The notes under the pieces are model-generated. The model worked only from the letters and a program-made list of their open reading frames with translations, did no database searches and had not been told where the DNA came from. Of a DNA stretch of 45,690 bases, positions 11,171 to 45,664 are shown in pieces; within the stretch, counting starts at the first letter, position 1, and each line of letters starts with the position of its first letter. The stretch comes from Coriobacteriales bacterium (lineage in GTDB: Bacteria > Actinomycetota > Coriobacteriia > Coriobacteriales > Atopobiaceae), in contig JAUMWN010000009.1 in the NCBI GenBank assembly GCA_030529625.1, positions 1-45,690 on the forward strand, read 5' to 3'. A program made the translations under genes and the position numbers.

Positions 11171-11192
11171 GGCGTGGGGCGGTGATGTGGCC

Positions 11193-12812
11193 ATGCGATC
11201 CCTAAGAACCCGCATGACGCTGTTTACCGTGTGCGTAATCCTTATTACCGTTACGAGCATGGCGCTTCTCAGCGTGCTGTTCATTCGCCGCACGGAGCAG
11301 CAAGAGTCCAACCAACTCCTCCTGCTCTTATGCGAGACGGGAGAGAAGAACCTCGACTACTACTTTAACAGCGTGCAGAAGTCGGTGAGCAAGGTCGCGT
11401 CCTTTGTGGAGTCGGACTTAGACGGACTGGGAGACGAGCAGCTCGCGAGCCACATGCAGCGTGTGCAGAAGCAGTTTGACGAGATGGCCTCAAAGACCAA
11501 CGGCGTCCTCACGTATTACTACCGCATCGACCCGGAGGTCTCCAAGAAGGTGAAGGGCTTTTGGTACACCGACCTCGACGGAGAGGGGTTCGTGGAGCAC
11601 GAGGTTACCGACATCAGCCAATACGACACGAAAGACACGACCAAGCTGGTGTGGTTTACCGTTCCCAAAAACGAGGGCAATCCCGTTTGGCTTCCGCCCT
11701 ACGTTACCGACAACCTGGACAAGCGCGTGATCTCCTACAACGTTCCCATCTACTGGCGTGGCGAGTTCGTGGGCGTCGTTGGCATAGAGATCGACTACTC
11801 AACCATGGCGGAGCAGGTGGAGAGCATCCGGCTCTACAACAATGGCTATGCGTACCTGTGCGACGAGGAGGGACACCTGTTCTTCCATCCACGCATCGAC
11901 GTGAGCAAGCTCTCGGCCGACGAAGTTCCTCAGATTCCCCAGGGGGCGGTGGACAAGAGCACCTTTGTGCGTTACACCTACGACGGCGTGGACAAGATAG
12001 CCGCATGGCTGCCTCTGAGCAACGGCATGCGCCTCAATGTTGCGGTGCCGGTAGTGGAGACCGAGGGCGACTGGCCCATGCTTATAGGCAACACCGTGCT
12101 TTATGCCGGCATCGTGCTGGCGGTGGCGAGTACGATTACCATGCTGTACGCCAGGCGCATAACCAAACCCCTGGAGGAGCTCACCGAGGCCGCCGACCAG
12201 GTGGACCGGGGCAACTACGACGTCGACCTCGCCTACGATCGAGACGACGAGGTGGGCCGTCTTACCAACACCTTCAAGCGGTTGGCCGGTCACATGAAGG
12301 ACCACATAAACGACCTCAACAAGCGCGTGTACGTGGACTCGCTCACCTCCGTGCGAAACAAGGGCGCGTACTCCACCTTCCTGGACGAGCTGCAGGAACG
12401 TATGGATGATGGGGACCAGACGGTGGCGTTTGCGGTTGGCATATTCGACTGCGACAACCTCAAGTACATCAACGACAGGTACGGTCACGAGAAGGGAGAC
12501 GTGTACCTGCAGACGGCATGCCGCCTCATCTGCCGCGTCTTCCAGCACAGTCCCGTCTTTAGGATTGGCGGCGACGAGTTCTCGGTCGTGCTCCAAAACG
12601 ACGACCTGCGCAACAGGGACACGCTCGCCCAACAATTCTCTGCCGCCATGAGCGACATTAGCGACTCGGCGCGCAACGAGTGGGAGCAGGTGCACGTGTC
12701 CATGGGAATCGCGGTGTACGACGCGCAGCACGATCGTGGCGTGAACGACGTCTTGCGCCGGGCTGACGAGCTCATGTACGAGAACAAGCGCAAAAGAAAG
12801 ATGGGGAGGTAG
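11193..12812 (+). CDS. Cache-HAMP-GGDEF diguanylate cyclase
   Basis: 539 residues: membrane helix 1 (about 9-30), extracytoplasmic double-Cache sensor (about 40-290), membrane helix 2 (about 300-325), HAMP (about 328-380), GGDEF domain (about 385-539). The active site is canonical, FRIGGDEF (GGDEF at 459-463), with FDCDNLKYIND upstream, so it should make cyclic di-GMP from GTP. The product-inhibition RxxD motif before GGDEF is absent. I chose the ATG at 11193 over the GTG two codons earlier because the paralogue at 20877 starts at the same place (MRSI) and because of its distance from GGGGCGG. It is followed 30 bases on by the double binding-domain sensor gene, so they are probably co-transcribed. 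The ligand of the Cache domain is unknown. Confidence 0.9.
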   Translation: MRSLRTRMTLFTVCVILITVTSMALLSVLFIRRTEQQESNQLLLLLCETGEKNLDYYFNSVQKSVSKVASFVESDLDGLGDEQLASHMQRVQKQFDEMASKTNGVLTYYYRIDPEVSKKVKGFWYTDLDGEGFVEHEVTDISQYDTKDTTKLVWFTVPKNEGNPVWLPPYVTDNLDKRVISYNVPIYWRGEFVGVVGIEIDYSTMAEQVESIRLYNNGYAYLCDEEGHLFFHPRIDVSKLSADEVPQIPQGAVDKSTFVRYTYDGVDKIAAWLPLSNGMRLNVAVPVVETEGDWPMLIGNTVLYAGIVLAVASTITMLYARRITKPLEELTEAADQVDRGNYDVDLAYDRDDEVGRLTNTFKRLAGHMKDHINDLNKRVYVDSLTSVRNKGAYSTFLDELQERMDDGDQTVAFAVGIFDCDNLKYINDRYGHEKGDVYLQTACRLICRVFQHSPVFRIGGDEFSVVLQNDDLRNRDTLAQQFSAAMSDISDSARNEWEQVHVSMGIAVYDAQHDRGVNDVLRRADELMYENKRKRKMGR

Positions 12813-17099: not shown

Positions 17100-18308
17100 A
17101 TGATGGCCGACATCGACGAGCTCCTGCGGCAGCAGAGCGCACTGTATGATGACGTGTTCAATAGGCATCAGCTCATTGTGGTGGGCAATGGGTTCGACCT
17201 TGCCTGCGGGCTCAAGTCCAAGTACTTCGACTTCTTTGGAAGCAGACTGCTGCAGATCGACCAGATTGTCGACTATGGGAGGCAGGCATGGTGCGATGCC
17301 GTCCGAGAGGCCGACCTCACGCTGTGGGACTTCCTCCTGCGCATGGAGCGGGGATCCAACTGGTGTCAGGTGGAGGAGACTATGGCACGCTGGGTGCTGC
17401 CCGCAACGTGCGACGGTGCCAAAGACAGCTACCTTGAGCGCACCCTGCAAAAAGTGCGACACTACCCCTTTGCCGACCCCAACGCCGAGCAGGCAACCTG
17501 CGACGGTCGGCTGGAGGACGAACAGGGCGACGAGGAATACATGCTCGGCAACGTAGCCCGGTTTGTGTGGATGACGCAGGGGAGAAGAGCTGCCGTTCGC
17601 ATGGACAGGATTGGGCTGCTGGCCCTGCTGCACGCCGAGTTGCGGCGCCTTGAGCGGCTCTTCTCAGCGTTTTTGGCCAAACAGGTGGCCCATACCAGCA
17701 CATACTTTGCCGATGCGTCCGCGCTGCTCGCAAAGCTGCGCGACGATGAGACCCCATGGGGAGGGTCGGGCGAGGGCGAGACGTCGCTGCTCACCTTTAA
17801 CTACACCCAGCCGTTTGCGCACCTGGATTGTGGAATCGCCGAGGACAACATGGTAAACATCCACGGCAATCTGGATGGCGAGGTGGTGTTTGGCATTGAT
17901 GGCACGGAGTGTATGGGTGACCTAGACGTCCTGCCGTTTACCAAGACGTATCGCGTGGCATCCATGGGAACTAAGATGAGCAAGGCCATATACGATACGG
18001 CTGCCGGTGGAATCGGCTTCTCTAGGACGAGCGCCATCAAGTTCTTTGGCCACTCGCTGGGGGTGGCCGACTATGCATACTTCCAGTCCATCTTTGACGG
18101 GGTCAACCTGTATGGCGGAAACACGAAACTCATCTTTTATTATCGATCATGGCAGGGCGTTACCCAGGAGGAGGTACGCGCCGACATGGTGCGTCGCGTG
18201 TCCAAGCTCCTTGCTACCTACGGCAAGACACTGGACAACAAGGATCACGGCAAGAACCTCATGCACAAGCTGTTGCTGGAGGGACGCATCTCGGTACGGG
18301 GGATATAG
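17100..18308 (+). CDS. AbiH-like phage abortive infection protein
   Basis: 402 residues. The N-terminal LIVVGNGFDLACGLKSKYFDFF (GNGFD at 29-33) is the hallmark of the AbiH family (PF14253). Later marks of the family are LLTFNYTQPF, VNIHGNLDG and FFGHSLGVADYAYFQSIF. AbiH was described in Lactococcus as a single-gene abortive infection determinant; its mechanism is not known. Two ATG codons (17100, 17103) follow AGGGATGGG; either may serve. It stands alone rather than in a defence island and lies between a rearrangement junction and a SpoVA-like gene 26 bases downstream, which may be co-transcribed. Function as phage defence is by family only. Confidence 0.8.
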   Translation: MMADIDELLRQQSALYDDVFNRHQLIVVGNGFDLACGLKSKYFDFFGSRLLQIDQIVDYGRQAWCDAVREADLTLWDFLLRMERGSNWCQVEETMARWVLPATCDGAKDSYLERTLQKVRHYPFADPNAEQATCDGRLEDEQGDEEYMLGNVARFVWMTQGRRAAVRMDRIGLLALLHAELRRLERLFSAFLAKQVAHTSTYFADASALLAKLRDDETPWGGSGEGETSLLTFNYTQPFAHLDCGIAEDNMVNIHGNLDGEVVFGIDGTECMGDLDVLPFTKTYRVASMGTKMSKAIYDTAAGGIGFSRTSAIKFFGHSLGVADYAYFQSIFDGVNLYGGNTKLIFYYRSWQGVTQEEVRADMVRRVSKLLATYGKTLDNKDHGKNLMHKLLLEGRISVRGI

Positions 18309-18334
18309 GATAGCGATTGAGGAAGGAACCAAAC

Positions 18335-19126
18335 ATGGAGCGAAGTGTTGGGCAAAAGCTTGTCGGGGCTTTCGTTGTAGGCGGCCTTATCGCGTCGTTT
18401 ATGCAATGCATCATGACAGTGGTGCGCATGGTCTTGCCTGTCCCCGCCCTTGTGTCTCCCGTGTCGCTGGCACTTTTGGGCCTCGTTGGCATGGTACTGG
18501 TGCTTAACGGCTCCTACCGGAAACTCGAAGAGATTGGCGGCTTTGGTGCGGGTATCATGTTTTGCGGCATCGTGGATGCCGTCTCTGGCGCCTTTATGCG
18601 TGGCGCTATGGAGGAAGGCGGTACTCCCGGTTCCGGCACCAAAGCTGCCTGCAGGTTTGCGGCGGTCATGCTTGGGTCGTTCGTGGTGTTGGGCATCGTG
18701 CTCGGTCTGCTGCTGGCCCGTACTCCTGGTGTGCTCGCCTCGATGAATGTTGTGGCAGCAAACAGCCTCGATCCCGGCCCGATAGTCTTCCTGTATGCCT
18801 TCCTTGTAGGTGGTCTTTTCTCAGCTGAGGGCCAGGCCCTGATTGAGCTTACTCCGTTGCCCATGCCTGCGGTACTGCTGGGCCATGCGGCATTGGGCAT
18901 GCTGCTTGCAATTCTTGGTGTGTCGACCCCGTTTGAGGTGATTGCGGGCGCTGGTCTGTGCGCCACTATCGTGGACGCAGGTGCCGGTGCCGTCCTGAGC
19001 GGAGCTGCCATCGTGCTTTCCGGCACGCCCATGCGTGCGATCGTCTTTGTCCTGCTGATGGTCCTCGTGGTGGTCATGGGCATCATCTGCGGCAATGTTG
19101 TGCTCAAGCGCGTCAAGGGCGCGTAG
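18335..19126 (+). CDS. SpoVA-like integral membrane protein, internally duplicated
   Basis: 263 residues, strongly hydrophobic with about six to eight helices. Two halves resemble each other and the SpoVAC/SpoVAE family: AFVVGGLIASFMQ at about residue 11 and AFLVGGLFSAEGQALIEL at about 150, each followed by a helix and a G-rich stretch (YRKLEEIGGFGAGI; FEVIAGAGLCATIVDAGAG). SpoVA proteins move dipicolinic acid in spore formers, but nothing else here points to sporulation, so the role must differ. ATG at 18335 has AGGAAGGA upstream, 26 bases after the AbiH stop. A GC-rich hairpin follows. Identification rests on motif resemblance by eye. Confidence 0.6.
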   Translation: MERSVGQKLVGAFVVGGLIASFMQCIMTVVRMVLPVPALVSPVSLALLGLVGMVLVLNGSYRKLEEIGGFGAGIMFCGIVDAVSGAFMRGAMEEGGTPGSGTKAACRFAAVMLGSFVVLGIVLGLLLARTPGVLASMNVVAANSLDPGPIVFLYAFLVGGLFSAEGQALIELTPLPMPAVLLGHAALGMLLAILGVSTPFEVIAGAGLCATIVDAGAGAVLSGAAIVLSGTPMRAIVFVLLMVLVVVMGIICGNVVLKRVKGA

Positions 19127-19201: not shown

Positions 19202-19254
19202 GTTGTACTGGGGGGACAGTCCCCTGAACACGGGGGACTGTCCCCCAGTACAAC
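19202..19254. repeat. GTCCCC palindrome between SpoVA-like and diguanylate cyclase genes
   Basis: Arms 19202-19224 and 19232-19254 each contain GTTGTACTGGGGG and GACAGTCCCC and pair almost perfectly around a seven-base centre, TGAACAC. Related copies are at both window ends and at 32033-32069. It lies seven bases past the stop of the minus-strand gene, so it may also serve as terminator for both convergent transcripts. Confidence 0.8.
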
Positions 19255-19260
19255 TCAGCG

Positions 19261-20877
19261 TTAGCGCTTGCTCTTGTGACTCCACTTGTCCTCGTACATG
19301 AGCTTGTCGGCGCGGCGCACCACGTCGCTCACCGTGTCGTCCACGTCGGGGTCGTACACCGCAAGGCCACGTGCCACGTCAATGCGCTCCCACGGGTTTT
19401 GAGCCTGCTCCCTGCGCTTGGCGCAGGTCTCGTCGAACAGCTCAATGAGGTAGTCTCGATTGCCAAAGTCGCTGCCGCGCAGGATCACGACGAACTCGTC
19501 CCCGCCCAGGCGGAAGACGGGGCTATGGTCGAACACGTCGCAAATGATGGCGCAGGCGCCCTTGAGGTAGAGGTCTCCCTTGTCGTGTCCGTCCTGGTCG
19601 TTTATTGTCTTGAGGTCGTTGCAGTCAAAGATGCACACGCCAAACTCCTTGGGCTCCTCCGTCTGCTCATGTAGGCTGGCTTGGAGGTCCTGTATAAACA
19701 CGTCGTAGGCACCCTTGTTGCGCACTGACGTGAGCGCGTCCGCGTAGGCGCGGTCGTTGAGGTCCTTAATGTACACGCCCAGATGTGACATGAGCTTTTT
19801 GAACGCGGCGGTGAGGGTGCCAATCTCGTCGTCTCTGTTGTAGGAGAGCTCGCAGCTGTAGTCGCCCTCGTTCACGTGCTCCGCGACCTCGGTGAGCTCC
19901 TGCAGAGGCTTGGTTATGCGCTTGGTAAAGCCGATGGTTATAAAGATAAACACGAGCAGCAGCACGACCGATGCTATGCACACTCGCCAGATGAGGCGCA
20001 CCCAGGCGGCGTCGACCTCGGCGACCGGCACCGATACATACAGGCGCATGCCATTGCTCAGCGGCAGCCACACGGCCACCTTCTTCACGCCCTCGTAGAC
20101 GTAGCGGATGTGGGAGTTCTCGCTCATCAGCTCGGGTGGCACCTCAACGGGTTCGTCCAAGGCCGTGAAATCAATGAGCGGGTGGTAGACGAGCTTGCCC
20201 GTCTCGTCTACCAGGAACGCGTACCCGTTCTCGTACAGCGTTATGTTGCGCACCTGAGTGGCCACGGTGGCGTAGTCTATCTCGATGCCGATCACGCCAA
20301 TAAAGCGACCTCTCCAGTAAACGGGAACGTTGTACGAGATTACGCGTGTGCCCAGGTTCTCGGTAATGTAGGGAGACAACCACACAGGCTCTCCCGTGCT
20401 CTTGGGGACCGTGAACCACACGAGCTTGGTGGTGTCGCTGGTGTCGTATTGCGTGATGTCGGTTACCTCATGCTCCTTGAACCCCTCGTTGTTGGTGTTC
20501 ACGAACCAAAACCCCTTGGATGTGTTGGAGACTTCGGGGTCTATGCGATAGTAGTAGGTGAGCACGCCGTTGGTGCGGTTCGTCATCTTGGTAAAGATGT
20601 CCTTGGCCCGCTCCAGGTGCGCGTCGAGCTGGTTGGGCGCCAGCCCCTCTAGGTCCGACTCCACGTATGCCGAGACCATCTGGACCGACTGCGCCACGCT
20701 TTCGAAGTAGGAATCCAGGTTCTTCTCGCCCGACTCGCACAGCAGCGTGAGCAGCTGGTCGGAGTCCGACTTGCCAATGTCTCGTATGGCGACTGCCCCC
20801 ATTATGGTGGCGATGGTGAGTGAGGCGATGACGGCGCATACCGTAAGTAGGGTCGTCTTTGTCTGTATGGATCGCAC
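19261..20877 (-). CDS. Cache-HAMP-GGDEF diguanylate cyclase, second copy
   Basis: 538 residues with the same domain order as the gene at 11193 and very similar sequence throughout the sensor (shared TNGVLTYYYRIDPEVS, SYNVPVYWRG, GVIGIEIDY). Active site FRLGGDEFVVIL is canonical; the RxxD inhibitory motif is absent. The GTG start at 20877 lies one base past the TAA of the EAL gene, with GGGGGTG upstream, so translation is coupled to it. Being last in a probable three-gene unit with an EAL phosphodiesterase puts opposing activities under one promoter. The Cache ligand is unknown. Confidence 0.9.
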   Translation of the reverse strand: MRSIQTKTTLLTVCAVIASLTIATIMGAVAIRDIGKSDSDQLLTLLCESGEKNLDSYFESVAQSVQMVSAYVESDLEGLAPNQLDAHLERAKDIFTKMTNRTNGVLTYYYRIDPEVSNTSKGFWFVNTNNEGFKEHEVTDITQYDTSDTTKLVWFTVPKSTGEPVWLSPYITENLGTRVISYNVPVYWRGRFIGVIGIEIDYATVATQVRNITLYENGYAFLVDETGKLVYHPLIDFTALDEPVEVPPELMSENSHIRYVYEGVKKVAVWLPLSNGMRLYVSVPVAEVDAAWVRLIWRVCIASVVLLLVFIFITIGFTKRITKPLQELTEVAEHVNEGDYSCELSYNRDDEIGTLTAAFKKLMSHLGVYIKDLNDRAYADALTSVRNKGAYDVFIQDLQASLHEQTEEPKEFGVCIFDCNDLKTINDQDGHDKGDLYLKGACAIICDVFDHSPVFRLGGDEFVVILRGSDFGNRDYLIELFDETCAKRREQAQNPWERIDVARGLAVYDPDVDDTVSDVVRRADKLMYEDKWSHKSKR

Positions 20878-20878
20878 G

Positions 20879-23869
20879 TTACGCACCCCCAGCTTCTTGC
20901 CCAAGACTTCGCGCGAGCCCCTCTGCCGGGATTTGCGGCACGGAGGCGTGATTCGCGCGGGATGGTTCGTCAATGGAAAGGACCGCTATGGCGACGGCCG
21001 TGGTGTTGGTAACGGGATTCGTGCGTACGGACCGGGCGAGGAAATGCACCACGTGTCCTTCCGGCATCACCTCGTCAAAGAAGACGAGGCTGTCGGTGTC
21101 ACCGCACGCTTGGACATGCCGGACGAACTGGGACTCCTCCTTGGTAGGGTTGGAGAATACGTCGTGTGCGGGATTGGCGAGGTCGAACCCAAAGTAACGC
21201 ATCACGAAGTCGCGATACGACTGGCTCGTGCGTACGAAGCTCGCCCGGTCTCCCTTGATCTCCATTACGCCCATGGGCAGCGTGTTAAAGATGTTGTGCA
21301 GCGTGCCGTCGTTCTTTTGCACGATAGACGTGAGATCCAACAGGTTCAACTTGCCAATCGCCTCGTAATAGTCTGACTCGGCAGGGTTCTCGTAGCCGAT
21401 TTGGGTGCCGGACCGGTAGCGATCAATAATCTGCGAAAGGGGTATTGCCCTGCAGTAGTAGAATCCCTGCATCTTGGAGCAGCCAATCTCGCGCAGAAAG
21501 CGCACTTGGTCCTGCGTCTCCACGCCTTCGCACAGCGTGTCCACGCCAAGGGCGGTCGCCATCTGCACGAGCTCGGTGAGGATGATCTTGCCGTCGGTCC
21601 CCTCGTCAATCCTGCGCAGGAAGCTCATGTCGAACTTGAGGAGGTCGAACTTGATGCTCTGCAAGAAGTTGAGTGACGAGTAGCCACTGCCAAAGTCGTC
21701 CATCCACACGGGGAACCCAAGGCTCTGGAAGCGCTCCACCTGCTGCTTCATAAACGCAAAGTCGCTGCCAATGATGCTTTCGGTTATCTCTATCGTTATG
21801 CGATCGCGTGAGACGCCTGCTGCGTCCACCCGCCTGCGAATCTCCTCAACCATGTCCAGGGAGTCGAAGTCGGCACGGGACAGGTTGACGGAGTGGGGAA
21901 CGATGGTGAGTCCAGCCTCCTGTTGGCGTTGAATCTTTTCCAGAATCTGGTCGAGTACGTACAGGTCAAGCTTGTAGATGAGACCGGAGTCTTCCAACGC
22001 GGTTATGAACTCGGCAGGTGACAGGTTGCCGCGATTGGGATCGACCCAGCGAGAAAGCGCCTCCTCGTCGCATACCCTGCCGTTGACGGAACGAACGATT
22101 GGCTGGTAGTGAACCTGAATCCATCGCTCGCTCAGGGCTTGGTCCAGGTGGCTGACCACGTAGCGGAAGACCTCTGCCTGCCTGAGCATGCTCTCGTCGA
22201 AGTAGCGGAAGCCGGAATAGTAGGAACCCCTGCGCCTGTCGCATGCATGCTTAGCACGGTCGCATGCCACGCTCACGTCCACGTTGCCCATGCTGTACCG
22301 ATAGATGCCCACGCTCACAGGCGGCATGTTGCCGCCGTTGGCCGAGCTGCACTCGTCAAACACCTCGTAGAGTCGCTCCTCAAGGCGGTCGTCGCTGGTG
22401 ATGACGGCAAAATGGTCTTGCCCAAAGCGGCTTGCGTGCTGCTCGCCAAAATGGCGGGCCAGGATGCGCGCGACCTTGCGGATGGTTCGGTCCCCCTCCT
22501 CGAACCCAAACTGTCTGTTGAACTGCTTCATGCCCACGAGGTTAAAGTACAAGAGCACCGGGCTTTCCCCGTTGTCCAGCAATAGCCGCAGCTCGTCTGC
22601 GGCAAGCTCAAAGAAGTGCCTCTGGTTGGGCAGGCCCGTGAGGTCGTCGGTCTGTGCCCTCTGGTTGAGGTCGGCGATATAGGTCTGTAGTTGGTTGCGC
22701 ATGCGCTGGAAGGCGTCAGTGAGTGCGCCAACCTCGTCGTGACCCCGGTAGCCCAGCTCCACGTCGTAGTCTGCCTCGGCCAGTCTGCGGGAGGCTGCCG
22801 TGAGGCTTTGGAGCGGACTGGTCACGTGGCGCATGGCCAGGAAGGTGAGACAGGCGAACAGGATGATGACGATTGCCGCTATGGGCGGGATCACGTGTGT
22901 GAGTCGCACAGACGATGCGTAGACCTCCGAGGTTGGCGCCACAATAACGAGCTTCATGCCTGTGGCGAGCGTGGTAAACGACATCTGGTACTCCACGTCG
23001 TCACGCACAGAGCGAATAAGCGCGTCACCATTGTCCTCCTGGCGCAGCACCTCCTCGTCGATGGGCAACTTTAGGGTGCCGCCTGGCGCAAGGCCGGGGT
23101 AGTAGAGGACTTGTCCGTTCTTGTCCAGCAGACAGGCGAATCCCGTATTGTACACGTGGATGGAGCTCACGAGTGACACGAACTCCTCCACGGGGATGTC
23201 CATCCCCAGCACGCCAATAAACGTGCCGGACTTGTATATGGGTACGACGTATGAACACACGGGTTCGTAACCCAAAAACCTCGCCTCGTAGGGGCCTACC
23301 CACGCTGGCGACCCGGCCTTGATGGGCGTGTAGTACCACGTATCGTGATTCGGATCGCTGGGGTCGAGTCTGTTTGCGTCCAAGGGTTCCTGTTCGCTAA
23401 ATCCCGACCTTCCAGCTCGCGAATAGAAGAAACCGTGTTCGGTTGTACTCACGCCGGGGCTAATGCAGTAGTAGTACGAGATGGCACCGTTTGTTCGACT
23501 GGCCACTGACGAGAACTCAGCTTGGATCGCGTTGGTGTATTCGGCCAGATAGGTATCCAAGTGTTCCACTTGCTCTGGGGTTCGCTCGGCCTGATTGCCA
23601 TTGGCGCCAACCACGCCGTCTCGTGCGAGCACCACACTGTCGAGCATGTCTACCGCACGGTTGGAGGTAATCTGCACCGATTGCACGATGCCGTCCGTGT
23701 ATTTTTCGATGGACTTGCGAGAGTCTTGGGCGATGAGGTTCATCATCTCCACAGAGCGATTTTCGATTTCGGTCTGTATGATGAGAAAGCTTGCCACAGA
23801 CACGCTGAGGACGGCCGTGAGGACCGCAGCAATGGTGATTGCGATTGCCTTGAAGCGGATGGAATGCAC
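20879..23869 (-). CDS. Cache-HAMP-GGDEF-EAL cyclic di-GMP phosphodiesterase with C-terminal PAS-like domain
   Basis: 996 residues: helix 1 (about 7-30), Cache sensor (31-330, related to those of the two cyclases), helix 2 (about 335-357), HAMP, GGDEF (about 412-575), EAL (about 580-830) and a C-terminal PAS-like region (about 850-960). The GGDEF signature is GQDHF (483-487), so no cyclase activity is expected. The EAL domain is intact: EALSRW (Glu603), NLSRADF, TIEITES, DDFGSGYSS (Asp724-Asp725), LKFDMSF, EGVET and QGFYY. It should hydrolyse cyclic di-GMP to pGpG. GTG start with AGGAG eight bases upstream. It sits 18 bases after the peptide-binding lipoprotein gene and overlaps the ribosome site of the next cyclase. 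Confidence 0.9.
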   Translation of the reverse strand: MHSIRFKAIAITIAAVLTAVLSVSVASFLIIQTEIENRSVEMMNLIAQDSRKSIEKYTDGIVQSVQITSNRAVDMLDSVVLARDGVVGANGNQAERTPEQVEHLDTYLAEYTNAIQAEFSSVASRTNGAISYYYCISPGVSTTEHGFFYSRAGRSGFSEQEPLDANRLDPSDPNHDTWYYTPIKAGSPAWVGPYEARFLGYEPVCSYVVPIYKSGTFIGVLGMDIPVEEFVSLVSSIHVYNTGFACLLDKNGQVLYYPGLAPGGTLKLPIDEEVLRQEDNGDALIRSVRDDVEYQMSFTTLATGMKLVIVAPTSEVYASSVRLTHVIPPIAAIVIILFACLTFLAMRHVTSPLQSLTAASRRLAEADYDVELGYRGHDEVGALTDAFQRMRNQLQTYIADLNQRAQTDDLTGLPNQRHFFELAADELRLLLDNGESPVLLYFNLVGMKQFNRQFGFEEGDRTIRKVARILARHFGEQHASRFGQDHFAVITSDDRLEERLYEVFDECSSANGGNMPPVSVGIYRYSMGNVDVSVACDRAKHACDRRRGSYYSGFRYFDESMLRQAEVFRYVVSHLDQALSERWIQVHYQPIVRSVNGRVCDEEALSRWVDPNRGNLSPAEFITALEDSGLIYKLDLYVLDQILEKIQRQQEAGLTIVPHSVNLSRADFDSLDMVEEIRRRVDAAGVSRDRITIEITESIIGSDFAFMKQQVERFQSLGFPVWMDDFGSGYSSLNFLQSIKFDLLKFDMSFLRRIDEGTDGKIILTELVQMATALGVDTLCEGVETQDQVRFLREIGCSKMQGFYYCRAIPLSQIIDRYRSGTQIGYENPAESDYYEAIGKLNLLDLTSIVQKNDGTLHNIFNTLPMGVMEIKGDRASFVRTSQSYRDFVMRYFGFDLANPAHDVFSNPTKEESQFVRHVQACGDTDSLVFFDEVMPEGHVVHFLARSVRTNPVTNTTAVAIAVLSIDEPSRANHASVPQIPAEGLARSLGQEAGGA

Positions 23870-23887
23870 GGACGTCGCTCCTTGCCG

Positions 23888-25549
23888 CTAGGGTTGCTCT
23901 TGGATTGACATCTTGCTGTACACGTTCTTTACCGAGCCGTTCCACGCATGCTGGAAGTTTTGCAGGCGCTTGGAAGTTACGTACAGGCGCGTTCGGGAGA
24001 ACAACGGAATCCAGGCGGCATCGTCTTGGATAATGGTCTTTTCCAGGTCTTGGTACTCGTCGATGCGCGCTGTGGGGTCGATGATGCCGCGCGCTTTGCG
24101 GACGCGAGCCATGACGTCTTCTGCGGGATAGCACAGGCTGCGGAAGGTCGTGTTTTCCTTGTTGCCAAAGAAGGTGTAGATGTAGTTGTCGGGATCGTTG
24201 TAGTCGGCGGTCCATGTGGCCGTGTAGCAGGCGAGCTTGCTGCTCTTGCGCTGGGACATGAACTCGCTCTCGTCCAAGACCTTCACGGACGTGTGGACGC
24301 CGATGTCCTCCCACATGTCGGCAGCCTCATTGGCCAGCGTGAGCTCCCACTGCGTGGAGGACGACTTCACGCTAAACGTGAGGTCGAATCCCTTTTCGTA
24401 GCCAGCCTCCTTGAGGAGCTTCTTTGCCTCGTCCACGTCGTGGGGTATGGCTGGCAGGTTGGGGTTGAAGCCGTACAGGCCATGCGAGAATATGCCGTTC
24501 TCAAGAAGACCGCGACCACTGTAGACGGCATAGAGCAGCACGTCACGGTCCAAGGCAAGCTGCAGCGCCTTACGAACGCGCACGTCGCTCAGCGGGGTCT
24601 GCGACTCGTTGAGCGCTATGTAGGTGATGCCAATCTGGGGGACCTCTTGGATCCTGTCCCGGTATGCGTTGCCATGGATGTAGTTCTCGGCGGAACTGTC
24701 CTGATCGTCTAGGTCCAGTATGTCGAGCTCCCCGTTCTCGAAGAGCGCGCGAATCTCGGCGGCATCTGTAATAAAGCGCAGGTTGAGCCCCTTGTTCTTG
24801 GGGCCCCCATCCCAGCAGTCCTTGTTTGCGACCAGCACCATCCCCTTGCCGCGTTCCCACTCGGTGAGCACGTACGAGCCGGTGCCAATGGTACACGAGG
24901 GGTCCGTCCCAAAGAGATCGCCAGCTTCGCTTGTGGTCTCCTCGTCCAGTATTGAGGCGCCGGGCATGGACAGGCATGCCAAGAAGGCCTCGAAGGGTTC
25001 CTCCAGGGTGATGGAGAAGGTGTGGTCGTCGAGGACCTTGAACCCCTCCAACTCCTTGGCCTTGCCCTTCTCGAGCTGTGATGCCCCCACGATGACCTCT
25101 GCAATGTCCTGGTTGCAGGAGTCCGGGTGCGTGAGCAGTCGGGTAAACGAGTAACGAACGTCGGATGCGGTAAGCGGAGAGCCGTTGCTATAGGTTACGC
25201 CCTCGCGAAGGTGGAAGGTGTAGGTCCTTCCGTCATCGGACTCCTCCCACGACTTGGCCAGGGAGGGGGTGATTTGGGACTTTCCATCCTCGCTATTCTC
25301 CATTTCCACCAGTCGGTTAAAGACGTTGGTGGCGATGGTGTAGTGGATGGAGGTGCATTGGAAGTCCACCGTGTCGGGCTCCTCCTCTATGGCAGTGAGG
25401 AACTGGGAGGTGTCTGGCGTGGCAGTCTTCGCCTGATCGGTGTTCGTGGCGCTCGTGGATACGCTTGCCTCACCACAAGCCGAGCACAATAATGCCATGG
25501 GAACGAGTGCCAAAAGAAGCAATAGACGCAGCCGTTTTGAGAATGCCAT
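23888..25549 (-). CDS. Oligopeptide-binding lipoprotein (ABC substrate-binding family 5)
   Basis: 553 residues. Signal peptide ending LLCSAC (Cys25), an imperfect lipobox, then a family 5 extracellular solute-binding domain: EEEPDTVDFQCTSIHYTIATNVFNRL near the start, LAKSWEESDDGRTYTFHLREGVTYSNGSPLTASDV, and the C-terminal YQDLEKTIIQDDAAWIPLF. Such proteins normally feed a dipeptide/oligopeptide ABC importer, but no permease or ATPase gene of that kind is in the window. Instead the next genes are the Cache-EAL and Cache-GGDEF proteins. Inference: it may serve as a ligand-presenting partner in sensing. ATG at 25549 has GGAGG five bases upstream, preferred to a start 12 codons earlier. Confidence 0.85.
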   Translation of the reverse strand: MAFSKRLRLLLLLALVPMALLCSACGEASVSTSATNTDQAKTATPDTSQFLTAIEEEPDTVDFQCTSIHYTIATNVFNRLVEMENSEDGKSQITPSLAKSWEESDDGRTYTFHLREGVTYSNGSPLTASDVRYSFTRLLTHPDSCNQDIAEVIVGASQLEKGKAKELEGFKVLDDHTFSITLEEPFEAFLACLSMPGASILDEETTSEAGDLFGTDPSCTIGTGSYVLTEWERGKGMVLVANKDCWDGGPKNKGLNLRFITDAAEIRALFENGELDILDLDDQDSSAENYIHGNAYRDRIQEVPQIGITYIALNESQTPLSDVRVRKALQLALDRDVLLYAVYSGRGLLENGIFSHGLYGFNPNLPAIPHDVDEAKKLLKEAGYEKGFDLTFSVKSSSTQWELTLANEAADMWEDIGVHTSVKVLDESEFMSQRKSSKLACYTATWTADYNDPDNYIYTFFGNKENTTFRSLCYPAEDVMARVRKARGIIDPTARIDEYQDLEKTIIQDDAAWIPLFSRTRLYVTSKRLQNFQHAWNGSVKNVYSKMSIQEQP

Positions 25550-25642: not shown

Positions 25643-25693
25643 GCCTGCAACGTGACACTGGGGGGAGCATCACCCCAGTGTCACGTTGCAGGC
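25643..25693. repeat. 21-bp perfect inverted repeat, probable terminator
   Basis: GCCTGCAACGTGACACTGGGG (arm 25643-25663) is exactly complemented by 25673-25693, with a nine-base loop. It lies six bases after the stop of the minus-strand HD-GYP gene and before the lipoprotein gene in the same direction, so it would separate the two transcripts. No T-run follows. Confidence 0.7.
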
Positions 25694-25698
25694 GCCGC

Positions 25699-27762
25699 CT
25701 ACTTCTGGTTCTTGCGGATGTTGTCGATGTCCTCGGTCGTGCCGCCGCCGGTGTCGTTGGGGTCGCGGAACTCGCCCTTGTCCACCAGGCGCAGGAACGC
25801 GTCCACCACGTCCTCGGTAAGCTGCGTACCACGCACCTCTCGGATGATGGACACGGCCTTGTCAAAGTTCATGCGCTTGCGATAGGGGCGGTCGGAGTAC
25901 ATGGCATCGAACGTGTCAGCCACGGCAATGATTTGAGCAACGCGGGGAATCTCGTCGCCCGTGAGGCCACGCGGGTATCCCTTGCCGTCGGGTCGCTCGT
26001 GGTGCGCGCCCGCGCCAATGGCGAGCTCGGGCATGATGCTGATGTCTTTGAGCGTGCGATAGCCCAGCGACGAATGCGACTTGATGATGTTGAACTCATG
26101 GTCGGTGAGCTTGCCGGGCTTGTTGAGCACCTCGGCCGGCACACCAATCTTGCCAATGTCGTGCAGCAGCGCGATGTTGTAGTAGCGCTCCACCATGTCG
26201 TCGTCGTAGCCAAGCTCGCGCGTGAGCATGGCCGTGTAGTCTGCCACGCGCGTCGAGTGGCCGTTGGTGTACTTGTCCTTCATGTCGATGACCTTTGCGA
26301 ACGCCTGGGTCATCTCGCGGATGAAGAGGCGGTCTTCCTGCTCCTTCTTGAGCAGCGCCTTGGTCTTCCTGCGGTAGATCCACCGGGTGATGAGAAAAAC
26401 CACGAGTGCGAGCACTGCAAGCGAGAGGATGCGGAACCACCACGTCTCTATGGGTGCCTTGCGCTTTACGATGCGCACCGACATCTCCTTGTTGCCGTGC
26501 CCCATGGCGTCGTGAATCTGCATGTTGAAGTGGTACGTGCCGCCCACCAGGTTCGTGTAGTCGATGGGCGCCAGCTCCGAGCGCCGCACGCTTGTCTCGC
26601 CTTGGTCGAACCCCTCAAGGCTGTAGCTCACCTGCGGGTTGAGCAGGGCATAGGTAAAGACGAACGGGTGGATGGTGAGCTTGGACACGGAGGCTGGGAC
26701 GTAGATGGTGCCCTCGGCGTCGGGGTACAGCATCTCTCCGTCCGCCTCCACGAAGGGGACGGCCATCTTTATGTCGTCGACGCTCTCAAACGGCACGTCG
26801 ATGTTGACCTTGGCGACGCCGGTCGTGCCGGCAAGGTACAGGTCGCCGTCTGGCGTGAGCTCGCTAAAGGAGTTTGCCGTGGCGATGCATGGCAGACCGT
26901 TGTCTCGACCGTAGTAGACGGGTGTGATGGAGCCGTTCTTGAGCAGCTCGTCCACGGTTACCACGTGGATGCCGTTGCTGCTGAGCACCCACATCTCGCT
27001 TGCCTTGTTCTCGTACAGGTCGAAGTTGTTGGAGTACGGGAAGTTGTTGATCGTGGTCACGTGGTAGTTGGCGTCCATGTAGGCAAGGGAGTTGCTGGTC
27101 ACAATCCAAAAGAGGTCTCGGGATGGGTCCTTCTTGATGCGCATTACCACGTCCGACCGCAGTCCGGACTTCGTGTCCACCGAGCTCACGGACCTCGATC
27201 CCCGCTTACCCTGCACCACAAAGATACCGCCTCCGTCAGATCCCACGACTATGTCGCCGTTGTCCGCCTCAGCCACCGTGAGGATCTCGGTGTTGTGCAG
27301 GCCGTCGTCCTCGCCCAGCACCTCTACGACGCGGTCCCCGTCAATGCACGCGAGCCCGCCCGTGCAGGCGACTAGCATGGTGCCGTCGCTCTTTTGGAAG
27401 GTGGTGCGCACGCGGTCGGAGGGGAGACCGTCTGCGTTGGTGAAGCAGGTTACCTTGCCGTCCTCGTAGCGGATGAGCCCGTAGTCGCCGTAGGTGGCAA
27501 ACCACAGGCGATTCTGATCGTCGCGCATTATGGAGCGAATGCGCACGTCCGTGAGCATGGACACGAGGTCCTTTTGGCCAAGGTCTTTGCCCGACGCGGT
27601 CCTGGCCGAGGAAAGGGGCATGCTCGACACGACGCTCTTGTCATCGACCACGCACAGCCCCGTGTCGGTTCCAATGTAGAGCTTGCCATCCAGGCTGCAC
27701 GTGGAATTGACTACGGCCTCCGGCAGGCCATAGCGCTCGAAGACGTTTGAGAACTGGTAGGG
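25699..27762 (-). CDS. HD-GYP phosphodiesterase with propeller sensor, 3' part of a frameshifted gene
   Basis: 687 residues in the frame downstream of the shift. It begins in the middle of the sensor propeller (YQFSNVFERYGLPEAVVNST), continues through further Reg_prop blades and a Y_Y_Y-type beta domain (FDQGETSVRRSELAPIDYTNLVGGTYHF), a membrane helix (WWFRILSLAVLALVVFLITR) and an HD-GYP domain. All metal and signature residues are present: HDIGKIGVP, HSSLGY, HHERPDGKGYP, VADTFDAM. It should degrade cyclic di-GMP if made. It has no credible start of its own; it joins the part at 27711-28778 if one C is restored in the CCC run at 27760-27762, giving 1026 residues. Confidence 0.85.
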   Translation of the reverse strand, partial: PYQFSNVFERYGLPEAVVNSTCSLDGKLYIGTDTGLCVVDDKSVVSSMPLSSARTASGKDLGQKDLVSMLTDVRIRSIMRDDQNRLWFATYGDYGLIRYEDGKVTCFTNADGLPSDRVRTTFQKSDGTMLVACTGGLACIDGDRVVEVLGEDDGLHNTEILTVAEADNGDIVVGSDGGGIFVVQGKRGSRSVSSVDTKSGLRSDVVMRIKKDPSRDLFWIVTSNSLAYMDANYHVTTINNFPYSNNFDLYENKASEMWVLSSNGIHVVTVDELLKNGSITPVYYGRDNGLPCIATANSFSELTPDGDLYLAGTTGVAKVNIDVPFESVDDIKMAVPFVEADGEMLYPDAEGTIYVPASVSKLTIHPFVFTYALLNPQVSYSLEGFDQGETSVRRSELAPIDYTNLVGGTYHFNMQIHDAMGHGNKEMSVRIVKRKAPIETWWFRILSLAVLALVVFLITRWIYRRKTKALLKKEQEDRLFIREMTQAFAKVIDMKDKYTNGHSTRVADYTAMLTRELGYDDDMVERYYNIALLHDIGKIGVPAEVLNKPGKLTDHEFNIIKSHSSLGYRTLKDISIMPELAIGAGAHHERPDGKGYPRGLTGDEIPRVAQIIAVADTFDAMYSDRPYRKRMNFDKAVSIIREVRGTQLTEDVVDAFLRLVDKGEFRDPNDTGGGTTEDIDNIRKNQK

Positions 27763-28778
27763 ACGATCTTCATCACCCCCTGGCGCGACGAGGTGAACCA
27801 CAGGTTTCCTTCGTAATCTTGCGCCACGTGGTCGATGGAGTTGTTGAGCGGGACGTTTTGCACCTGGTGGACATGGTCGCCCTCCATAAAGCCAATGCCG
27901 TTGTCCGCGCATATCCACAGTCGGTCGCCAAACAGCGCGAGGCTCTTGATCGACGAGAGGGGAGAGACGTCGATTCGCTTGGGGTTGGCAAAGCCGTCCT
28001 CGAGGTTTCCGTAGTATACGCTGGACTCCTTGGTGCCCAGGTACACGTATCCGTCCCTGTTGGGGTCGGGAAGCACCGAGATCACGCTGGGGATGCCCAG
28101 CTGCTCGCTGGTATAGAAGTCACGCAGGGCCTCGCCCTTGATGGAGAACACCTCGCCTTCCATGGTGACGCCATACAGGACGCCCTTGGAGTCGGGCAAC
28201 AGGTCGCGCACGTACGACTCGTCGACGCGCGGGTCGTGCATGGGCACGATTCTGCCGTCCTGGCTTACCAGGGTGATGCCTTCTGTGGTAGCCACAAAGA
28301 TGTTGCCAATCCCGTCCTCCGCAACGGCGCGTACCGATGCCGAGGTGAGCCCGTCCTCCATGGTGATAAAGCGGAACTCGCCGTCCTCAAGCACGGCCAC
28401 GCCGCTGTCGTTGGTGCCAACCCACAGCCGGTCCGTGCTGTCGACAAACAGACTCACCACGCTGGCGACGCCGGTGGTGGAGCCCATACGCTCAAAGGTG
28501 TTGCCGTCGTAGCGGATCAGGCCGCTGTAGCTGCCAATCCAAATGAAGCCCTCCTTGGTCTCCACGATGTCGTTGGCCTCGGATGTGGGCAGGCCGTTGG
28601 TGTTGTCGTAGAGCACCGCCGAGTATCCCTCGTCGTTTGATGCGAGGTCTACCGAGAGCTCGGGCTGCTCGGTGGTGGACTCTTGGGCGCATGTCGTGTG
28701 AGGAGGGGCCACAAGACCCACCGTCAGGACGAGAAGTGCAATAAGCCACAGTCTGGTCACCATATGTCGCTTTGCCAT
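27711..28778 (-). CDS. Propeller sensor, 5' part of the frameshifted HD-GYP gene
   Basis: 355 residues. A signal peptide (MAKRHMVTRLWLIALLVL, cleavage near CAQES) exports a two-component-regulator-type beta propeller with repeats such as GFIWIGSYSGLIRYDG, DRLWVGTNDSGVAVLEDGEF and GNIFVATTEGITLVSQDG. The frame ends with ... RQGVMKIVPTSSQTSSSAMACRRP, whereas the other frame continues the propeller at the same point, so the last 14 residues are out of frame. ATG at 28778 has AGGAG five bases upstream; the longer open frame upstream has no site. As it stands this piece would be a secreted, incomplete propeller. Confidence 0.85.
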   Translation of the reverse strand: MAKRHMVTRLWLIALLVLTVGLVAPPHTTCAQESTTEQPELSVDLASNDEGYSAVLYDNTNGLPTSEANDIVETKEGFIWIGSYSGLIRYDGNTFERMGSTTGVASVVSLFVDSTDRLWVGTNDSGVAVLEDGEFRFITMEDGLTSASVRAVAEDGIGNIFVATTEGITLVSQDGRIVPMHDPRVDESYVRDLLPDSKGVLYGVTMEGEVFSIKGEALRDFYTSEQLGIPSVISVLPDPNRDGYVYLGTKESSVYYGNLEDGFANPKRIDVSPLSSIKSLALFGDRLWICADNGIGFMEGDHVHQVQNVPLNNSIDHVAQDYEGNLWFTSSRQGVMKIVPTSSQTSSSAMACRRP

Positions 28779-28817
28779 ACGGGCTCCTAATCCACAAGAA
28801 AGACGCTCGGTGCCCAT

Positions 28818-28823
28818 AGTATA
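28818..28823 (-). promoter_or_regulatory. Possible -10 element of the propeller-HD-GYP gene
   Basis: TATACT on the minus strand lies 39 bases before the ATG at 28778, preceded by TGGGT. No good -35 box. On the plus strand TATGAT at 28923-28928 may serve the divergent gene at 28964. Confidence 0.3.
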
Positions 28824-28963
28824 ACCCACGGCACTTGATGCCACGCTTCATGCAAGCGGACACCATTGCCTTGGCCAGCCGATATTCGAGAACGGGGGCG
28901 CGATACTGAGACCAAAAGGTGGTATGATTTCGGCTTGCGCATGTGTTGCGGATTGGAGGCATG

Positions 28964-32032: not shown

Positions 32033-32069
32033 AACCTGCACTCGGGGGACAGTCCCCCGAGTGCAGGTT
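32033..32069. repeat. Perfect 18-bp palindrome with GGGGGAC core, probable terminator
   Basis: Arms 32033-32050 and 32052-32069 pair completely around one central A; the core is GGGGGAC-A-GTCCCCC. It starts six bases after the CmpB-type stop codon. The core is shared with the palindromes at 19202-19254 and the window ends, but the outer arms differ. Confidence 0.75.
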
Positions 32070-45599: not shown

Positions 45600-45664
45600 C
45601 TTAGGGGACTGTCCCAGTACGGAGGTGTGTCCCCCGAACACGGGGGACTGTCCCCTGAGTACGA
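45600..45664. repeat. GTCCCC palindromic repeats near the right window end
   Basis: Two overlapping units: AGGGGACTGTCCC with GTAC, then TGTCCCCCGAACACGGGGGACTGTCCCC with GAGTAC. The GAACACGGGGGACTGTCCCC core matches the right arm of the element at 19202-19254. The stretch from 45511 to the end has no gene. Confidence 0.7.

Follow-up and report, generated by a model that had tools for sequence, protein, structure and literature searches.

The signals of most membrane c-di-GMP enzymes are unknown. One of the closest described systems is NspS-MbaA, in which the binding protein NspS binds MbaA, encoded immediately downstream, and controls this HAMP-SGDEF-EAL receptor (PMC8079147, PMC9993111). 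Another is the sensing of L-arginine in Salmonella, for which both ArtI and the dCache_1 diguanylate cyclase STM1987 are required, as cited in a review (PMC8846402); the same review names SBP_bac_3 as the only family within the periplasmic-binding-protein clan to have been studied in c-di-GMP networks. Here we describe a locus in which a solute-binding lipoprotein of family 5 (SBP_bac_5) is encoded directly upstream of a Cache-domain c-di-GMP enzyme, and we propose that the two probably form an extracytoplasmic c-di-GMP sensor, the ligand-loaded lipoprotein regulating the enzyme encoded downstream of it.

The locus lies in the window (the whole stretch of DNA analysed, 45,690 nucleotides) and comprises three genes on the minus strand, with strong inverted repeats flanking the unit on both sides:

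23888–25549, minus strand: family-5 (Dpp/Opp-type) orphan solute-binding lipoprotein, 553 aa (SBP_bac_5, 2e-92; lipobox LLCSAC)
23870–23887, minus strand: 18-bp junction with ribosome-binding site AAGGAG ahead of GTG 23869 (from the sequence)
20879–23869, minus strand: dCache_1-HAMP-degenerate GGDEF (GQDHF)-EAL protein, 996 aa (Pfam), predicted c-di-GMP phosphodiesterase
19261–20877, minus strand: dCache_1-HAMP-GGDEF protein, 538 aa, with intact RLGGDEF (Pfam and motif), predicted diguanylate cyclase
25643–25693, no strand: inverted repeat with 24-nt arms upstream of the lipoprotein gene (repeat search), possible unit boundary
19202–19254, no strand: palindromic repeat just past the cyclase stop, one of several GGGGGACAGTCCCC copies, possible unit boundary

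The lipoprotein gene starts at ATG 25549, with GGAGG five bases upstream, and stops at 23888. The EAL gene runs from GTG 23869 to its stop at 20879 (EAL domain match E 1e-63, Pfam), and the cyclase gene follows after a single base (20878), from GTG 20877 to its stop at 19261. This agrees exactly with the order given in the initial annotation (lipoprotein, 18 bp, dCache-HAMP-GGDEF-EAL, 1 bp, dCache-HAMP-GGDEF), which had also reported that no peptide permease or ATPase is present; none lies beside the lipoprotein gene in the window, and among the ABC genes at 32–35 kb are those for a binding protein of the Bmp/PnrA type and for an ABC ATPase. A scan for promoters and terminators returned matches near chance level. 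The palindromic repeat around GGGGGACAGTCCCC has 11 matches in the window compared to 0.44 expected by chance, with copies at 12–26, 19202–19254, 32044–32058 and 45604–45656. Upstream of the unit, at 25699–28844 (minus strand), two overlapping frames encode a two-component-regulator beta-propeller (Reg_prop) and an HD-GYP-type domain; they probably represent a single sensor gene whose frame shifts near 27.7–27.9 kb, either genuinely or through an assembly error. This HD-GYP gene was considered as a member of the unit and rejected, as it has no homologue at any other locus examined and the inverted repeat intervenes. At the other end, an AbiH-like gene (17100–18308, plus strand) is followed directly by a gene for a SpoVAC/SpoVAEB-like membrane protein (18317–19126, plus strand), and this pair ends beside the c-di-GMP unit on the opposite strand. 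Another dCache-HAMP-GGDEF cyclase without a lipoprotein, 54% identical to the unit's third gene, is encoded at 11187–12812 (plus strand).

The genome as a whole encodes five SBP_bac_5 proteins, three of which (on contigs C162, C98 and C95) adjoin permease genes. The remaining two, in the window and on contig C166, have no permease beside them and a Cache-GGDEF-EAL gene directly downstream of each, the lipoprotein and enzyme genes of the C166 copy overlapping by 4 bp (ATGA). The two copies are similarly diverged (60% identity between the lipoproteins, 58% between the enzymes), which suggests that lipoprotein and enzyme were duplicated together. Domains of c-di-GMP metabolism are abundant in this genome, with 53 GGDEF and 24 EAL matches, some of which are pieces of one domain. 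On contig C82 there is an amino-acid-type ABC transporter with its binding domains fused to the permease (L050, 1139–4794), and divergent from it lies a gene resembling a LacI-type periplasmic-binding fold plus GGDEF, followed by an EAL gene.

A profile built from these two lipoproteins identified the orphan type in all 16 genomes of the genus, at 25 loci. Every one of the 25 has a Cache c-di-GMP enzyme directly downstream and none has a permease; the gaps range from 2 to 32 bp to the homologous start, apart from the single 4-bp overlap on C166. Conservation of the pairing in 16/16 genomes excludes chance association. It also bears on the possibility that the genes were joined by an error in a metagenome-derived assembly, through contamination or misassembly, since our assembly is in 194 contigs with 7.5% estimated contamination; the same junction recurs in every genome of the genus, several of which have few contigs and a completeness of 98% or more, and we regard an artefact as refuted by these independent assemblies and thus extremely improbable.

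Among 140 genomes of the family, the orphan type was otherwise found only in G125, a match in G019 being a permease-linked OppA. A class-wide search with the Cache region of the module uncovered a further orphan pair in G349, which belongs to another family. In G349 (L170, 6569–9473) the Cache-EAL partner gene is split by a frame change and the lipoprotein gene is intact. G345 (L171), a genome of the same genus as G349, encodes the same long Cache type with a GGDEF domain and has no lipoprotein upstream. A scan of genome contigs using just the lipoprotein as query yielded only a distant protein from Fredinandcohnia.

Overall, 27/27 orphan lipoproteins (25 in the genus, plus G125 and G349) are paired with a Cache c-di-GMP enzyme, and no ABC permease or ATPase genes were found at these 27 loci. 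The partner is of the EAL type at 20 loci (including G125, L172), is a GGDEF-only enzyme with intact motif and no EAL domain at four (L101, L103, L104 and L106), and is cut by contig ends at three. For comparison we examined 60 SBP_bac_5 loci in other genomes of the phylum, drawn from the best-scoring matches listed and therefore not random. Among these, 53/60 have an Opp-type permease or ATPase nearby and none has a lipoprotein gene followed by such an enzyme gene; at one locus GGDEF is matched weakly, on the other strand and next to a complete Opp operon.

As evidence against its reading the initial annotation had named a permease set, elsewhere in the genome, to which this lipoprotein clearly belongs, combined with absence of the lipoprotein next to the EAL gene at related loci; we find the contrary on both counts, as the related loci keep the pair and the three permease sets of the genome each have their own family-5 protein. 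Its picture of two opposing enzymes does not hold as a general rule. The third gene, encoding the Cache-GGDEF cyclase, is present only at the window, L084 and L086 loci, and most orphan loci encode a single enzyme, either phosphodiesterase or cyclase. We therefore rejected the third gene as a core component, the core consisting of two genes.

In a maximum-likelihood tree of 44 proteins, the 24 orphan lipoproteins included form a single clade (98/91), sister to the OppA proteins of the genus that are encoded with OppBCDF. The permease-linked OppA proteins of the same genomes, with OppB, OppC, OppD and OppF adjacent, form a separate group about 37–40% identical to the orphans, and about 17 fixed positions distinguish the orphans from OppA. 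These data bear on an alternative in which the lipoprotein is a further receptor for an OppBCDF transporter encoded elsewhere, sharing a promoter with the c-di-GMP genes for co-regulation only. There are precedents in AliA and AliB, which feed Ami in streptococci, and PrgZ, which feeds the host Opp; the genome does carry OppBCDF genes, on C162, the nearest relative of the orphan lipoprotein is the OppA that belongs to this set (37% identity), and the Asp that anchors the peptide N-terminus is kept. However, the pairing with a c-di-GMP enzyme is exclusive (27/27 loci), and persists through duplication and in another family, and AliA and AliB are close to AmiA, unlike the orphan lipoproteins with their fixed differences and low identity to OppA. 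We consider this alternative unlikely, and the lipoprotein is probably a dedicated outside sensor and not an importer.

The lipoproteins with cyclase-type partners (L104; L101 and L103) branch outside the clade of all those with EAL-type partners (100/99), which indicates that the output has been exchanged. The window, L084, L085 and L086 lipoproteins form one group (98/89), with the third gene present at all three loci whose contig reaches far enough. A possible history, to which we would give slightly less than an even chance, is that one lineage of OppA-type lipoproteins switched once from transport to signalling and became the component that senses ligand in a modular c-di-GMP receptor, the output being exchanged from synthesis in basal members to degradation in derived ones, with a second cyclase added later to make an opposed pair. 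Distances among lipoproteins and among their Cache domains are correlated (r 0.89, 16 pairs, 0/2000 permutations), which is consistent with contact between the two, although shared descent would by itself make them diverge together to some extent.

The lipobox of the lipoprotein ends at Cys25, and the sole Pfam family matched is SBP_bac_5, at 310 bits against a curated cut-off of 32.4. The best PDB matches of its AlphaFold model (pLDDT 81.9) are DppA, OppA, GbpA, NikZ and AapF, with Z of 33–37 over about 470 residues. Since these matches are so varied, the fold alone does not fix the ligand, and family 5 also takes in nickel-, haem- and opine-binding proteins. In DppA, D408 anchors the peptide N-terminus and R355 anchors the dipeptide carboxylate. 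The equivalent of D408, Asp449, is invariant in 22/22 lipoproteins. There is no equivalent of R355 in a Ser/Ala/Thr region at residues 396–400 of the window protein, nor in the sister OppA, and a simple dipeptide is therefore an unlikely ligand. A peptide or peptide-like ligand is likely, and the residues favour one whose amino end is free and which is not a simple dipeptide.

In the EAL-bearing enzyme, the catalytic EAL residues that bind metal and substrate, E603, N662, E694, D724, D725, K745, E781 and Q801, are invariant in 18/18 orthologues, and in the same 18 the GGDEF motif is degenerate (GQD[HQ]F, with the first G replaced by A once; RFGQDHF in the window). These proteins are therefore predicted phosphodiesterases, and that of the window probably has this activity only. 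Its degenerate GGDEF domain may still bind GTP, as an analogy with CC3396 suggests (PMC8079147). The motif is intact in the third-gene cyclase and in the basal partner enzymes, and the four basal loci apparently encode an active cyclase. At about residues 840–967 the EAL protein has a C-terminal domain that matches no Pfam family and is predicted to be alpha/beta and possibly PAS-like; the domain occurs in some orthologues and is missing from others, L088, L099 and L100 among them. A model of the full-length EAL protein (pTM 0.39, distal Cache pLDDT below 50) was too weak for fold work.

Among solved structures the Cache domain is most closely related to 9HVJ (E 3e-52), a Roseburia sensor of uracil and acetate (PMC12415202), and the distal pocket retains W178, D224, an aromatic residue at 148 and Y/F194. 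Because these residues are kept, the Cache domain may bind a small ligand directly, the lipoprotein serving as a modulator. An alternative to the two-protein sensor goes further and has the Cache domain sense a small molecule by itself, while the lipoprotein either has something else to sense or deliver, or raises the ligand concentration for the Cache pocket without docking. The solved relative and the conserved aromatics and Asp agree with this, as does the occurrence in these genomes of Cache-GGDEF proteins without a lipoprotein, that of G345 being of the same long type. However, a uracil sensor was rejected because the four residues R116, T145, N178 and N180 of 9HVJ are replaced by C135, L163, A196 and F198 in the window protein (across orthologues C; L/F/I/P/V; mostly A; and mostly F/S), an amino-acid sensor of the dCache_1AA type because the column of PctA R126 holds T/Y/S/D/N/F/V and no Arg, and an acetate sensor because the site is incomplete in the window protein. 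Of the amine motif of dCache_1AM sensors, which also takes in the R103/D133 pair of PctD, the part covered by the alignment (the common aromatics and Asp) is present. The long Cache type with an N-terminal extension is almost always paired with a lipoprotein. We therefore doubt that the Cache domain acts alone, and hold this to be about as improbable as the supply of ligand to OppBCDF.

In the two-protein sensor that we prefer, an OppA-related family-5 lipoprotein would no longer serve an adjacent ABC transporter; once loaded with ligand, most likely a peptide or a similar compound, it would close and dock onto the dCache domain of the enzyme encoded immediately downstream, from which the signal would travel via HAMP to the cytoplasmic output domain. 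In the window this output would be the phosphodiesterase activity of the EAL domain, the GGDEF domain being non-catalytic, and in basal members an active GGDEF cyclase; the unit of the window's subclade would have gained a further Cache-GGDEF cyclase. Since that unit encodes both activities, a single input could set the balance of phosphodiesterase and cyclase in this subclade only. Cotranscription, physical contact, the class of ligand and the sign of the c-di-GMP response are parts of this scheme that we infer. Of the peptide-sensing module put forward in the initial annotation, the orphan, sensory-type partnership is upheld by pairing that is exclusive at 27/27 loci, by co-duplication and by co-divergence, and the peptide ligand is plausible only. 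If the scheme is correct, peptides would be sensed here by a c-di-GMP system whose combination of parts is absent from the literature searched. The same input would also have been naturally coupled to different outputs, a cyclase in some species and a phosphodiesterase in others. As the genes for binding protein and enzyme come in pairs, binding assays on a single soluble protein can be used to look for the ligand.

The suggestion that no system of exactly this make-up had been described stands in so far as no description of a family-5 member paired with a c-di-GMP enzyme was found in the literature searched, the coverage of which was incomplete; it needs qualifying in that NspS-MbaA is a system of the same kind with a binding protein of another family. 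The lipoprotein shares fold and family with OppA/DppA and the orphan proteins AliA/AliB and PrgZ, together with the Asp matching the N-terminus anchor of DppA, and differs from them in its lack of permease genes, its exclusive link to c-di-GMP enzymes and the non-conservation of DppA R355. The Cache domain has its closest solved structure among the dCache_1UR sensors (9HVJ) and partly shares their pocket, but the four residues specific for uracil are all replaced. ArtI is a component of an arginine ABC transporter. As with ArtI and STM1987, a binding protein is teamed here with a dCache_1 enzyme; unlike ArtI, the lipoprotein is of another family, is dedicated, and is encoded with its enzyme.

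The likeness to NspS-MbaA of Vibrio cholerae and Sinorhizobium meliloti lies in a binding-protein gene directly upstream of or overlapping the receptor gene (here at 27/27 loci), and in a receptor composed of an extracytoplasmic sensor, HAMP, an altered GGDEF and EAL (20 loci here, with four basal ones lacking EAL). Co-sensing of the NspS-MbaA kind is the explanation of the present pairing with the best support. However, NspS is a PotD-like polyamine binder of proteobacteria, whereas the present lineage is a different one and its binding protein is a lipoprotein of family 5 (Dpp/Opp type); the altered motif is SGDEF in MbaA and GQD[HQ]F here; and, unlike in NspS-MbaA, the partner of some members is a cyclase only and one subclade has a third gene. 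As its binding protein comes from another family, the present system is not a member of the NspS-MbaA family, and it would extend the NspS-MbaA principle to a large peptide-binding family and a different bacterial lineage.
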